Assembly: GCA_015295905.1 (NCBI GenBank) | Contig: DVEB01000267.1 | Coordinates: forward strand, 1 to 60,890 | From: Synechococcales cyanobacterium M55_K2018_004 | Lineage (GTDB): Bacteria; Cyanobacteriota; Cyanobacteriia; Elainellales; Elainellaceae | Direction of reading: 5' to 3' | DNA: 60,890 bases | In this document: one piece after another, positions 33,443-39,140 of the stretch | How positions within the stretch are numbered: position 1 is the stretch's first letter | Layout: every line of letters begins with the position of its first letter | The notes under the pieces: generated by a model | Database searches by the model: none | What the model saw: the letters and a program-made list of their open reading frames with translations, nothing else | What the model was told of the DNA's origin: nothing | Translations under genes and position numbers: made by a program

Positions 33443-33661
33443 ATGGCAGTTGAAAAGGTAAACTCTTCCTCCTCTCTGGCTGAAGTAGTCGATCGCATTC
33501 TCGATAAGGGCATTGTTGTGGATGCCTGGGTGCGTGTGTCGCTGGTCGGCATTGAACTGCTGGCGATCGAAGCTCGTGTGGTGATTGCTTCCGTTGAGAC
33601 CTACCTGAAGTATGCAGAAGCTGTGGGTCTGACTGCTCAAGCTGCGGTTCCGGCGGCTTAA
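33443..33661 (+). CDS. gvpA: Gas vesicle structural protein GvpA
   Basis: 72-residue main shell protein that assembles into the ribbed gas-permeable wall. It starts [20 protein letters not shown] and contains [20 protein letters not shown] and [20 protein letters not shown], near-invariant in cyanobacteria. First gene of the cluster; only one copy is present here, whereas many cyanobacteria carry several. A 163-bp gap follows before gvpC, where other clusters have an attenuating hairpin; none strong is seen here. Confidence 0.98.
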
Positions 33662-33824: not shown

Positions 33825-34748
33825 GTGACGGCTCTCAAAGACCAGTGGTATGCGCAGCGGCTCCAACGCCAGCAGGAACTCGCGCAACGTCAGCAAACTG
33901 TGGCTGAGCTACTCTCTCGCTTTCAGCAAGAACGTCAGATTGTTGCCGATGCATTGCGCGATCGCCTCTCCAACTTCTGTCAATCACTCCAGCAAGGCAC
34001 TCAGGCACATCTTGCTGTGGTGCAACAGCAGCGGCAGGAAATGGCGGCAGAACTGATGGCAGACTTACACCAGTTTAAGAAAATTCTTCAGCAACAAACC
34101 GCCCAAACGCTCTCGGTGATCGCTGCTGAGCGATCGCTGATGGCACAGCAACTATTGCAAGATCTGACTACTTCCCGTGCCTCCCTGTCGGTCTCTGTGG
34201 CGGAACTGCGATCGCTCATCCAACAGGGGATACGCGCACTCCAGGCAGAAGTCGATGCCCTGCGTCGTGCCACCCACATTCGACTGGACGAGTTTCAGCA
34301 ACAACGACAAGACCGCGCTGCTGCGATCGCTCAAGACCTGGCAAACTTTATGGACAGCTTGCACGCCGATGTGCAGTCTTACTTGGACGATCTAGCGGTG
34401 CTACGGCAAAAACGCGCCGAAGCAATCAGCACCCTGCTGCAACAAGCCCAGTTAGAGCGGGCGATCGCCATGGAAACGCTGTTCCAGGAATTCGCCGAAT
34501 TTCGCATCGAACTGCGGCAGTCCCGCCTGCGTCTGCGAGAGATGGTCTGGGGCAGTAGTCTGATCCCGTCTCAAAGTCAGGCTGTTCCTGCTAAAGCACC
34601 CGCCACTGCTGTTGCCAGTCTTGCGTCTGCGGCCAAATCTCCAGCCGCAGTTCCCGCTGCCAAGCCCGCGCCTCCGCCTGTCGGCCCTCGCTTAAGTCCT
34701 CTAAGCCCGCAGCCAAGGCTATTGCCAAAGCTCCCAAGGCTAGAGTAG
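33825..34748 (+). CDS. gvpC: Gas vesicle protein GvpC (main frame, truncated by frameshift)
   Basis: Outer-surface strengthening protein of gas vesicles. As read, 307 residues: N-terminal TALKDQWYAQRLQRQQELAQ, then about five to six 33-residue amphipathic repeats rich in Gln, Leu, Ala and Arg (for example LLSRFQQERQIVADALRDRL, LLQDLTTSRASLSVSVAELR), then an Ala/Pro linker ending in an off-frame tail (PRLLPKLPRLE). A start codon GTG at 33825 is preceded by AGGAGG at 33812. Another frame continues to 35080 with a conserved domain, so the native protein was probably about 418 residues. See the separate 3' feature. Confidence 0.9.
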   Translation: MTALKDQWYAQRLQRQQELAQRQQTVAELLSRFQQERQIVADALRDRLSNFCQSLQQGTQAHLAVVQQQRQEMAAELMADLHQFKKILQQQTAQTLSVIAAERSLMAQQLLQDLTTSRASLSVSVAELRSLIQQGIRALQAEVDALRRATHIRLDEFQQQRQDRAAAIAQDLANFMDSLHADVQSYLDDLAVLRQKRAEAISTLLQQAQLERAIAMETLFQEFAEFRIELRQSRLRLREMVWGSSLIPSQSQAVPAKAPATAVASLASAAKSPAAVPAAKPAPPPVGPRLSPLSPQPRLLPKLPRLE

Positions 34749-35080
34749 CTCCCAGCCTATCTGCGATCGCCTCCAAACCGCCGAGTTCCCCACCTCTTTC
34801 CCAAACACTCCCACTTGTCCCCCCCGTCTCTCCCCCCCCTATACCCGACTCCATTCATCCCACCTCCACCACCCAACCCACCGATCCCCTCGACAACCCC
34901 ATCGAGAAGGAAATCTATCGCTACCTATGTGAACACACAGGAGCCCGCTTGACCGAAATTGAGTCTGCTCTGGAAATTAACCGTTTTCAAGCCGTTGAAG
35001 CCCTGCGTTCGCTGATCAAAAAAGCCCTAGTCAGCCAGCGTGACCGTATGTATTCTATCCATGAGGATCTGAGCCAGTGA
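34749..35080 (+). pseudogene. gvpC: Displaced 3' part of gvpC (-1 frame): linker plus winged-helix-like domain
   Basis: In the frame one base back from gvpC, an open reading runs through SSKPAAKAIAKAPKARVAPS, a Pro/Ser linker, then EKEIYRYLCEHTGARLTEIE and INRFQAVEALRSLIKKALVS (34904-35035), to a TGA at 35078-35080. That stop overlaps the gvpN GTG start by 3 bases (GTGA), the arrangement expected of intact coupled genes. The domain matches the GvpN C-terminus. A one-base deletion (or two-base insertion), or an assembly error, between about 34560 and 34748 explains it. Confidence 0.85.
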
Positions 35081-36654
35081 CTACCGTACTGAAAGCCAGC
35101 CCCCGCCGATTTGTCAGCACCCCTGCCATCGAACGAGTCGCCAATCGCGCCCTGCGATACCTGCAATCTGGCTACTCTGTTCACCTGCGTGGCTCTGCCG
35201 GAACCGGCAAAACCACCCTTGCCATGCACCTAGCAGACCTGCTGGCACGCCCCATTATGCTGTTGTTTGGCGACGATGAATTCAAAACCTCTGACCTGAT
35301 CGGCAATCAAATGGGATATACCCGCAAGAAAGTGGTGGATAACTTCATCCACAGCGTGGTCAAGGTCGAGGATGAATTGCGACAAAACTGGGTAGACTCC
35401 CGCCTCACCCTCGCTTGCCGCGAGGGGTTTACCCTGGTCTACGACGAGTTCAACCGTTCTCGTCCTGAAGTCAACAACGTGCTGCTGTCAGCATTAGAGG
35501 AAAAATTGCTGGTGTTGCCCCCTAGCAACAGCCGCTCTGAATATATTCGCGTTGACCCCAACTTCCGTGCTATCTTCACCTCGAATCCGGAGGAATACGT
35601 GGGAGTCCATGCAACGCAGGACGCATTGCTAGATCGATTAATCACAATCAACATCCCAGAACCCGATGAATTGACGCAGACGGAAATTGCCGCTCAAAAA
35701 ACTGGGATCGACCGTGAGAGCGCCCAAATTATTGTGCGGCTGGTGAGGGCATTCCGCAGCCGCACTGGCAACGAAAAAACGTCGGGATTGCGGTCTTCTC
35801 TGATCATTGCGAAGATCTGTCACGAACACGGCATCATTGCCACACCCGAAAATGCAGACTTCCGGGAAGTGTGTCAGGATGTCTTGCTGTCGCGGGCAGG
35901 GTTACCGTTGCACGAAGCGACTCAACGGCTGTGGGAAGTCTTTAACGAACACATTGTGGGAAATTTAATCGGTATTTCTGAGCTGGAATTCATGCCTGAA
36001 AATCAGCCCATTAATGCTGAAAATTCTCAAACGTTGCTGCAGAAGACCGTCAATAGTGACATCAATCGTGAGACCAATAGTGAGATTAATTCTGTGGCAT
36101 GGGATGCATCAACGTTTGATGTGACACAAGCGGTTGAATCATCTCACTACGTCGGTGTCGATTCCACCAAAAATCATCCACTCGAACCGCAACTAACTGT
36201 CTCTCAAGATCCTGAATTCAGAACGGTTGAGTCTGAAGGGGCGATCGCTGTCATTGCGCCAGAGGTCTTGGCAGAAGAGCCGATGGCTGCCACTAGAACC
36301 GGACTCTATCCCTTAGAATCCACGGCTGCGATCGCCACTCCCATCGACCCTGCGGAGCGAGCGGAAACGGCTTTCCCTGATGCCATTGATCTGTACGCTG
36401 AAGCGGCAGGGATGGCACCAGCTGAACTCAACACGGCTGAGGACACAGAACTGCGATCGCCCACCGTGCCCTACGAACAAGAAGTCTACGATTATCTACA
36501 ACGCCACCCCAATGCTCGCCCTTCCGAAGTTGAGGCTGCCCTAGGCATCAGTCGTTTCCATACGGTGAATGCCATGCAGGTCCTTAGTGAAAAGGGACTA
36601 GTGGCTCCTACTGCCAGTCATCACGATCGCGCTCGCTCTCGTCATCGAGGATAA
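35077..36654 (+). CDS. gvpN: Gas vesicle AAA+ ATPase GvpN with C-terminal winged-helix-like domain
   Basis: MoxR-type AAA+ ATPase needed for efficient gas vesicle growth. Walker A GSAGTGKT (39-46), Walker [13 protein letters not shown] (D123, E124) and sensor motif [10 protein letters not shown]; the ATPase core occupies about 1-290. At 525 residues it is longer than typical GvpN (about 350). The extra part is a low-complexity acidic linker (about 300-460) and a C-terminal domain (about 467-510, [34 protein letters not shown]). The GTG start overlaps the displaced gvpC stop. Confidence 0.95.
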
Positions 36655-36657
36655 GCT

Positions 36658-36993
36658 ATGAGTTTTACTGCCCCTGCTCCTGCATCGCCCCAACGCATGC
36701 CCACTGCCACTCAGGGATCAACCCTGGCAGATGTACTGGAACGCGTTTTAGACAAAGGCATTGTCATTGCAGGAGACATTTCTGTTTCCGTTGGTTCCAC
36801 AGAACTGTTGAGTATCCGCATTCGATTGTTAGTTTCCTCGGTAGACAAAGCGAAGGAGATTGGCATTAACTGGTGGGAGAGCGATCCTTACCTGAGTACA
36901 AAATCTCAACACTTGCTGGAAGAAAACCAACGCTTGCAGGCTAGGCTGGAAGTTTTGGAGCAGCAGTTGCGATCGCTGAACGCCGCTTTTTAG
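36658..36993 (+). CDS. gvpJ: Gas vesicle protein GvpJ
   Basis: 111-residue minor shell protein of the GvpA superfamily: LADVLERVLDKGIVIAGDIS, then SVGSTELLSIRIRLLVSSVD, with a C-terminal coiled-coil tail (EENQRLQARLEVLEQQLRSL) that GvpA lacks. It is thought to act in nucleation or tip assembly. Starts 3 bp after gvpN, so co-transcribed. GvpM is the alternative name in other organisms. Confidence 0.93.
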   Translation: MSFTAPAPASPQRMPTATQGSTLADVLERVLDKGIVIAGDISVSVGSTELLSIRIRLLVSSVDKAKEIGINWWESDPYLSTKSQHLLEENQRLQARLEVLEQQLRSLNAAF

Positions 36994-37336: not shown

Positions 37337-37816
37337 ATGTCTACTCCTGAACACGGCCATCCTCCCATTCAAATCCACCCTGCTCAGGCAAAACCTGAGC
37401 AAAAAGGCGCTAATGCAGGGCTGGCACCGCTGTTGCTCACCGTGGTTGAACTGGTGCGGCAACTGATGGAAGCCCAGGTCATCCGTCGGATGGAAGCGGG
37501 ACAATTGAGTGATGACGACTTGGATCGAGCCGCTGACAGTCTGCGCAAGCTGGAAGAACAAGTAGTACAGCTTTGTGAGATTTTTGAAATTGATCCGGCT
37601 GATCTAAATATTGATTTAGGAGAAATTGGCACGCTGCTGCCAAAATCGGGATACTATCCCGGTGAAACATCACCGCATCCCTCAATCCTGGAATTACTCG
37701 ATCGTCTTCTCAACACAGGAGTCGTTGTTGAAGGAGATGTGGATTTAGGATTAGCACAATTAAATCTCATTCATGCAAAATTGCGTTTAATTCTGACCTC
37801 AAAGCCAATCGAGTAG
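37337..37816 (+). CDS. gvpK: Gas vesicle protein GvpK
   Basis: 159-residue accessory protein required for gas vesicle formation; the family links nucleation to shell growth. The N-terminal part (about 1-35) is variable; the core is LLLTVVELVRQLMEAQVIRR and DLDRAADSLRKLEEQVVQLC. The C-terminus carries a GvpA-like segment, ILELLDRLLNTGVVVEGDVD. The start lies 12 bp after a family A element, so its leader is partly repeat-derived. Confidence 0.95.
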   Translation: MSTPEHGHPPIQIHPAQAKPEQKGANAGLAPLLLTVVELVRQLMEAQVIRRMEAGQLSDDDLDRAADSLRKLEEQVVQLCEIFEIDPADLNIDLGEIGTLLPKSGYYPGETSPHPSILELLDRLLNTGVVVEGDVDLGLAQLNLIHAKLRLILTSKPIE

Positions 37817-37972: not shown

Positions 37973-38144
37973 AACCCATAGATAGAGCAACCGCAGGGTT
38001 GGCTAGGACGAGGGGCAGCGGTTCCACTCCTATGTGGGGTCAACCCCTCTATCCTCCCTTGTCCTCATCAGTCTTCATCAGTCTTCGAGTGCTATATCTG
38101 CCTCCTATTTGAGAACTGCCCCCCCAACTCACCTCCCTAGAACT

Positions 38145-38882
38145 ATGACCAACCATCTTTATCTCTACGGAATTTTCCCTGCCCCTGGTCCCCAAAATCT
38201 AGAATTAGAAGGCTTAGACAAGCAGCCCGTCCAAGCTCAGGACATTGATGGGTTTGTTTTTCTCTACTCCAGAGCACAGCAGGAGAAGTATCTCGCCAGC
38301 CGCAGGAACCTGCTGGGACACGAGCGAGTTCTAGAGCAGGCGATGGAGCAAGGCTATCGGACTCTGTTGCCGCTGAGATTTGGTCTGACGATTGATAGTT
38401 GGAACACCGTCCAGGAACAACTGATTGCATCAAAGGGAGATGCCCTGCATCGACTGTTTGACAAGCTGCAAGGACAACGCGAAGTCAGTGTTAAAGTTTT
38501 TTGGGAGCATGAGCGTGAGTTGGCGTTGTTGATGGCAGAAAATACTCAACTACGGCAAGAACGCGATCGCCTGGAAGGAAAATCGCTGAGCATGGATGAA
38601 ATTGTCCGTATTGGACAGGCAATTGAACAAGCAATGGGCGATCGCAGGCAATGGATTGTAGAACAATTCCGCAATACGCTCAATCCGCTGGCGGTTGACG
38701 TTGTAGAAAATAAGCTCATGTCAGAAGCGATGATCTACAATGCAGCGTATCTGATTCCTTGGGAAGCAGAACCCATCTTTGCCCAAGCCGTTGAAGCGCT
38801 GGATGCCCAGTTCGACGATCGCCTAAAGCTGCGCTACAACAACTTTACAGCTCCCTTTAACTTTGCACAAATTGAGAACTGA
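38145..38882 (+). CDS. gvpF: Gas vesicle protein GvpF (GvpF/GvpL family)
   Basis: 245-residue accessory protein that binds GvpA and is found at the gas-facing surface in Microcystis-type structures. The conserved start is MTNHLYLYGIFPAPGPQNLE. The N-terminal domain (about 1-110) includes YRTLLPLRFGLTIDS; a coiled-coil-like linker (AENTQLRQERDRLEGKSLS) and a C-terminal domain with a predicted ferredoxin-like fold follow. ATG 38145 was chosen; the extension to 38034 has no family likeness. Confidence 0.94.
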   Translation: MTNHLYLYGIFPAPGPQNLELEGLDKQPVQAQDIDGFVFLYSRAQQEKYLASRRNLLGHERVLEQAMEQGYRTLLPLRFGLTIDSWNTVQEQLIASKGDALHRLFDKLQGQREVSVKVFWEHERELALLMAENTQLRQERDRLEGKSLSMDEIVRIGQAIEQAMGDRRQWIVEQFRNTLNPLAVDVVENKLMSEAMIYNAAYLIPWEAEPIFAQAVEALDAQFDDRLKLRYNNFTAPFNFAQIEN

Positions 38883-38909: not shown

Positions 38910-39140
38910 ATGTTTCTTGACCTCCTCCTTGCCCCTGTCACTGCTCCCATCAACGGCATGAACTGGATCGCCGGAAAAATTTTGGAACAGGCAGAACCCT
39001 ACCTCGATCAAAAAGAGAATTTGAAGAAACAACTGCTCTCTCTGCAACTGGCCTTCGATATGGGTGAAATTGAAGAGGAGGAGTTTGAGGCTCAGGAGGA
39101 GGAATTGCTGCTGGCGATCGCCGCTCTTGAGGAGGAATAA
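38910..39140 (+). CDS. gvpG: Gas vesicle protein GvpG
   Basis: 76-residue accessory protein, N-terminal MFLDLLLAPVTAPINGMNWI, strongly acidic C-terminus (EIEEEEFEAQEEELLLAIAA), typical of GvpG. Starts 27 bp after gvpF. It is the last gvp gene on this strand; gvpV and gvpW, often next in cyanobacteria, are not in the window. Confidence 0.94.
   Translation: MFLDLLLAPVTAPINGMNWIAGKILEQAEPYLDQKENLKKQLLSLQLAFDMGEIEEEEFEAQEEELLLAIAALEEE

Follow-up and report, generated by a model that had tools for sequence, protein, structure and literature searches.

Homologous C-terminal domains with a predicted winged-helix fold on the gas vesicle proteins GvpC and GvpN of cyanobacteria

The gas vesicle proteins GvpC and GvpN of Synechococcales cyanobacterium M55_K2018_004 end in homologous domains of approximately 50 residues, both encoded on the + strand and each carried on a long linker. 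This agrees with an earlier reading of the sequence alone, which had claimed that the same domain ends both proteins. The genes lie in a window of 60,890 nucleotides, which is the whole stretch of DNA that was analysed. Many other cyanobacteria have the domain on both proteins as well. In the cyanobacterial models that are studied best, GvpC is without the tail. A small, modular, soluble winged helix-turn-helix (wHTH) on each protein would provide a direct handle on GvpC-GvpN recruitment, by which GvpN, an AAA+ ATPase, may come to a vesicle as it grows.

Results

The features of the gvp locus are collected in Table 1. Scores above the NCBIfam cut-offs identify gvpN and a cyanobacterial gvpC, and the latter gene sits between gvpA and gvpN. 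The GvpA-like segment of the gvpK product spans its residues 116-154.

Table 1. Positions in the window of the gvp genes and of the parts of gvpC and gvpN.
Feature	Coordinates	Strand	Evidence
gvpA, shell rib protein	33443..33661	+	Pfam Gas_vesicle, 60.7 bits (cut-off 25)
gvpC core: N-terminal segment, 33-residue-type repeats, 'VWG' motif, start of linker	33825..34748	+	ORF list, translation, TIGR02641 gvpC_cyan_rpt, 20.2 bits (cut-off 18.8)
'VWG' motif after last GvpC repeat	~34542-34550	+	Translation
Overlap of gvpC core frame and tail frame	34595..34748	+	Frame analysis; relatives unsplit
GvpC linker, Pro/Ala/Ser/Lys-rich	34551..34891	+	Charge count
GvpC C-terminal winged-helix domain (predicted) and stop	34892..35080 (domain proper 34904-35071)	+	AF2, fold matches, E 2.7e-29
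gvpN, AAA+ ATPase, 525 aa	35077..36654	+	NCBIfam TIGR02640, 396.3 bits (cut-off 266.8)
GvpN linker, residues 305-465	35989..36471	+	pLDDT <50 over 330-460; charge
GvpN C-terminal HTH domain (predicted), residues ~466-510	about 36472..36606	+	Predicted structure; homology
gvpJ (GvpA-like)	36658..36993	+	Pfam Gas_vesicle, 57.5 bits
gvpK with Gas_vesicle segment at C-terminus	37337..37816	+	Pfam GvpK, 113.6 bits; Gas_vesicle, 50.6 bits
gvpF/L	38034..38882	+	Pfam GvpL_GvpF, 222.5 bits
gvpG	38910..39140	+	Pfam GvpG, 82 bits

The similarity of the two tails extends over the 44 aligned positions first reported, with 20 identities in an ungapped count rather than 21. Smith-Waterman alignment of the GvpC and GvpN tails gives a score of 97, whereas none of 5000 shuffles exceeds 54 (z about 20), and a profile-profile comparison gives a probability of 99.9 (E 2.2e-31). 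A tblastn search of the whole source genome with the GvpC domain returned, apart from the query itself, only the tail of GvpN (E 1.7e-6); no third copy was found. An E..R core signature is common to both copies, and the GvpC copy is the better conserved of the two (mean distances of 0.41 and 0.60, respectively). In the GvpC copy the recognition helix begins with a retained Arg and Gln, and the QRDRxY wing is invariant. In GvpN copies the core residues persist (Glu 0.88, Arg 0.97), whereas the wing is degenerate or missing and the conservation of the recognition helix is mostly gone. Since GvpN copies have largely lost the conserved wing, the two copies would not be equivalent halves of a dimer, and a symmetric GvpC-GvpN tail dimer is unlikely.

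Given the GvpC tail and 48 natural relatives of it, AlphaFold2 predicts three helices (residues 3-14, 20-27, and 31-43) followed by two β-strands (residues 47-50 and 53-56) with a pLDDT of 89.8. The model of GvpN has an AAA+ core, a disordered region at residues 330-460 (pLDDT <50), and then three tail helices at residues 467-476, 482-489, and 493-505 (pLDDT 88-97), with no wing formed in the source-genome copy. The suggestion of a winged-helix module on both proteins is therefore upheld for GvpC, whose predicted tail has both the three helices and the β wing, but only for the three-helix core of GvpN; the predicted folds of the two tails agree with one another rather than being unrelated. The solved structures nearest to the GvpC tail are winged helices (7bzh, Z 11.2; MecR2, 11.2; 1sfx, 10.9; VIA). 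DNA-binding wHTHs of the MarR, ArsR, TrmB, and Z-alpha types are among the closest fold matches, and ScpB (3w6j) was matched as well. In sequence, the likeness to these proteins is faint: a search of the PDB with the GvpC-tail profile gave weak matches throughout, the best of them to 1sfx (E 0.17). Against TrmB (PF01978) the GvpC tail scores 23.5 bits and GvpN 22.9 bits, below the gathering cut-off of 25.6, and against MarR_2 (PF12802) GvpN scores 24.4 bits, below the cut-off of 27, with no match to the GvpC tail. As modelled, the tail domain is a wHTH that lies outside the TrmB and MarR_2 families as defined. It has a Glu at a position of the HTH core where a small residue is expected.

The two linkers had been described as long and of low complexity, and both are indeed predicted to be disordered. 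With its two reading frames joined, the GvpC linker of the source genome comprises ~112 aa with a net charge of about +7, and the GvpN linker is acidic, with a net charge of -21 over ~160 residues. Across 58 paired genomes, GvpC linkers are basic (mean charge +5.2, mean length 74 residues) and GvpN linkers are acidic (mean charge -13.1, mean length 83 residues), a difference in charge with a Wilcoxon p of 3e-11 (n=58). Acidic disordered linkers are common in bacteria anyway. We infer that tethers charged in this way would help the two tails to come together. The tail domains themselves are near neutral, with average charges of -0.1 for GvpC and -0.3 for GvpN, and cyanobacterial MarR_2 control domains are more positive than either (+1.4, n=25, p 0.017 and 0.001). 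GvpN proteins without the wHTH at three loci (L148-L150) end in short acidic peptides that recur between genomes (e.g. ESLIKLLEMSELSEDDLP).

The GvpC tail had been assigned to the -1 frame, and this displacement is real: the core and the tail of gvpC lie in different, overlapping frames, the tail frame being open from 34595 to 35080. As sequenced, the gene would need a frameshift to yield the tail, and the site of this shift falls most naturally at about 34660-34720, within the overlap. In every relative examined (56 of 56 named loci, the phylum sample, and the source genome's family), gvpC is one uninterrupted frame across the junction. Family relatives carry the tail domain inside open frames of 294-468 aa, and two family matches that were flagged with a TAA in the matched stretch have surrounding open frames that hold the complete domain. 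The overlap contains neither a slippery heptamer nor a homopolymer of 4 or more, and programmed frameshifting was rejected given this and the single frame of gvpC in the relatives. Because the relatives are unsplit, a slippery site is lacking, the tail is undecayed (it keeps the family-invariant L, E, R, V, L, and Y), and the stop codon of the tail frame overlaps the GTG start of gvpN (GTGA), the split is private to this genome and is either a recent indel or a sequencing or assembly error. Thus, with its tail out of frame with its core, the GvpC half of the pair in the source genome is either recently broken or mis-sequenced.

Among 386 cyanobacterial genomes screened, 56 have a GvpN that scores over the cut-off. 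The domain is present on both proteins in 19 of these, on GvpN only in 7, on GvpC only in none, and on neither in 30, a co-occurrence with a Fisher p of 1.5e-9 when phylogeny is ignored. Tails in this phylum sample were read at the loci, with 30 genomes searched whole and 13 of the 30 'neither' genomes examined at the locus only. To label four genomes (G278, G376, G334, and G125) as GvpN-only would be wrong, as each has a tailed gvpC elsewhere in the cluster. When the GvpC tail served as query in a wider scan, which covered 84,980 species of bacteria and archaea and reaches close relatives only, 56 loci were returned, some of them from the same genomes as the phylum sample. All 56 are cyanobacterial and carry the domain on the gene in the gvpC position; GvpN is in view at 55 and has its copy in about 49 of them. 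The domain occurs in 27 of the 36 genomes of the source genome's family, and in several of these (L148-L154) GvpC alone carries it. No convincing copy was found outside gvp loci, either in the 36 family genomes at E<=0.01 or in 30 genomes at E<=0.1, where only three matches, with E values of 0.02-0.03, lie elsewhere.

The sequence-only reading held that standard GvpC and GvpN lack the domain. This is correct for proteins of the Anabaena and Microcystis types, but many cyanobacteria carry it, and the domain occurs on both proteins in many genomes besides the source. Given that single-copy genomes exist, the pair of tails is not obligatory, and strict pairing was rejected since such genomes occur in both directions. 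GvpC of the Anabaena type stops just after the W/F-G motif that elsewhere precedes the linker. In four Nostocales with rearranged clusters (L140-L143), gvpA-gvpC lies about 6 kb from gvpN and the wHTH tail of GvpC is kept, indicating that operon adjacency is not the cause of the shared tail. One genome (G262) has two gvp clusters (L016 and L057); GvpN of one cluster has a diverged tail domain, and in the other cluster GvpC and GvpN each carry the domain. In another cyanobacterial group (L049:5641-6693(-) and L053:5294-6457(-)), GvpC ends in a third kind of conserved segment, VRDLLA-GA--L-VDPS-IL-TL--M, and GvpN has no tail.

On a tree of 122 rows and 57 columns, the GvpC and GvpN copies separate with 5 label changes, compared with a mean of 41 after shuffling; resolution is low, and the starred branches force only 1 label change. 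Because the copies separate in this way, they are consistent with old duplicates that arose in one duplication, rather than recent copies. Gene conversion between the copies was rejected, the GvpC-GvpN distance being 0.58 within a genome and 0.59 between genomes. Distances of the two copies are correlated beyond the distance of the GvpN core (partial r 0.31; label-permutation maximum 0.16), which may point weakly to co-evolution, phylogeny being not fully corrected for in this statistic or in those of presence and absence. The GvpN copy is often decayed where GvpC has no tail. Relic GvpN tails lie beyond the stop codon at two loci (L007 and L008), the copy is split by a frameshift at a third (L013), and it is truncated at two more (L017 and L021). 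As these sequences read, the domain has been lost repeatedly in cyanobacteria, apparently also in the planktonic species that are studied best.

Discussion

With somewhat less than even confidence, we propose that the paralogous wHTH modules on GvpC and GvpN constitute a tethered docking system specific to gas vesicles. That the tails may dimerise or meet a common partner during assembly had already been suggested in the sequence-only reading. GvpC would coat the vesicle surface, and its basic linker would let the C-terminal module extend outwards. There this module would pair with those of other GvpC molecules, with the module that GvpN carries on an acidic linker, or with both. GvpN would thereby be held at the GvpC coat, or would open the coat locally, where new GvpA is inserted. 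The presence of the domain on both proteins, its restriction to gvp loci, the opposite charges of the tethers, the correlated distances of the copies, and the frequent decay of the GvpN copy beside a tail-less GvpC would all favour such docking. The 7 GvpN-only genomes and the several GvpC-only family members count against it, as does the fact that the winged-helix fold is most often DNA-binding. If docking works in this way, the module would offer a natural docking tag for engineered gas vesicles in ultrasound imaging.

It is also conceivable, although we consider it rather unlikely, that the modules never touch one another and instead bind the same third component, such as GvpF, GvpK, GvpJ, or the edge of the GvpA shell, which would gather coat and ATPase in one place. 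A third component would easily explain why some genomes keep only one of the two copies. The haloarchaeal GvpC C-terminal domain has GvpF, H, I, L, N, and O as binding partners (PMC9501494), and the E..R core signature is kept in both cyanobacterial copies. However, only the GvpC copy conserves its exposed recognition helix and wing, so a surface by which both copies bind would need to be on another part of the domain.

We regard as unlikely a role for the tails in binding DNA or RNA, by which they would anchor vesicles on the nucleoid or on the mRNA of the vesicle proteins, or act as regulators of the gvp operon. The closest solved folds are DNA-binding wHTHs, and the Arg, the Gln, and the invariant wing of the GvpC copy would suit such a function. 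Furthermore, two unrelated GvpC lineages have DNA-binding-type modules in the same position: the wHTH and, in Halobacterium, a C2H2 zinc-finger sequence at the C-terminus of the pNRC100 gvpC product (L137:1667-2815; Pfam ROS/MUCR, 28.3 bits, cut-off 25.4), ROS/MUCR being a DNA-binding family. Nevertheless, the tail domains are near neutral beside the more positive MarR_2 controls, the GvpN copy sits on an acidic tether with its wing and recognition-helix conservation mostly gone, and some winged helices mediate contacts between proteins, as in ScpB. We also hold to be quite improbable a self-association of the GvpC tail that cross-links GvpC and so locks the coat mesh, or that clusters vesicles, with the GvpN copy acting as a competitor or a decaying duplicate. 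The greater conservation of the GvpC copy, the existence of GvpC-only genomes, the binding of haloarchaeal C-terminal domains to one another, and a proposed haloarchaeal GvpC mesh (PMC9501494) speak for it; genomes that keep an intact domain on GvpN alone speak against it, as do the aerotopes of tailed benthic and tail-less planktic Planktothrix, which in the one phenotype comparison found are described as alike in abundance and size (PMC5259702). Finally, we see only a slim chance that the coat displays many copies of a nucleic-acid-binding winged helix and thereby links vesicles with the nucleoid or with gvp mRNA, the wing-less GvpN paralogue competing for or releasing this link during growth, an arrangement that the haloarchaeal zinc finger may parallel.

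The sequence-only reading presented the shared domain as unusual, and in this it was partly anticipated, since a shared C-terminal stretch was already noted in 2017 for Planktothrix (PMC5259702). According to that description, the C-terminus of GvpC40 in non-planktic strains resembles GvpC of Geitlerinema PCC 7407 over 60 aa and includes a 28-aa stretch that is 64% identical to Planktothrix GvpN, and planktic strains have a shorter GvpC (PMC5259702). Judged by this description, the Planktothrix stretch is almost certainly the same domain, and the existence of the shared sequence is not new. The account concerns one genus and gives no fold, tethers, cyanobacteria-wide survey, or mechanism. In the open-access literature searched, we found no description of the fold, extent, loss pattern, or charged tethers, and nothing relevant that links gas vesicles with a winged helix or helix-turn-helix.

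Three known systems bear comparison with these tails. TrmB/MarR-type wHTHs (PF01978 and PF12802; AF2008, 1sfx) have the same predicted fold with weak sequence similarity, but the tail domain scores below the Pfam cut-offs, is near neutral, and is always C-terminal on gas vesicle proteins. The Anabaena-type proteins share the GvpC repeats ending in a W/F-G motif and the AAA+ core of GvpN; they differ in that GvpC is without linker or wHTH and the GvpN tail is diverged, truncated, or a relic. In haloarchaea, GvpN binds the C-terminal domain of GvpC (PMC9372576), a domain unrelated to the wHTH, and in Halobacterium salinarum this module binds GvpN and itself (PMC9372576, PMC9501494). Like the cyanobacterial protein, H. 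salinarum GvpC consists of repeats, a low-complexity linker, and a small C-terminal module. Unlike it, the module is a C2H2 zinc-finger sequence, the linker is acidic, and GvpN has no such tail. Homology with the haloarchaeal domain was rejected given its zinc-finger sequence, and ROS_MUCR gave no match to the GvpC frames of the source genome. The unrelated haloarchaeal domain may nonetheless do the same job as the docking modules proposed here, and on the best reading cyanobacteria would have met a recruitment problem of the haloarchaeal type with a duplicated wHTH. Since the two architectures converge on repeats, linker, and small module, GvpC may generally carry a C-terminal hub.
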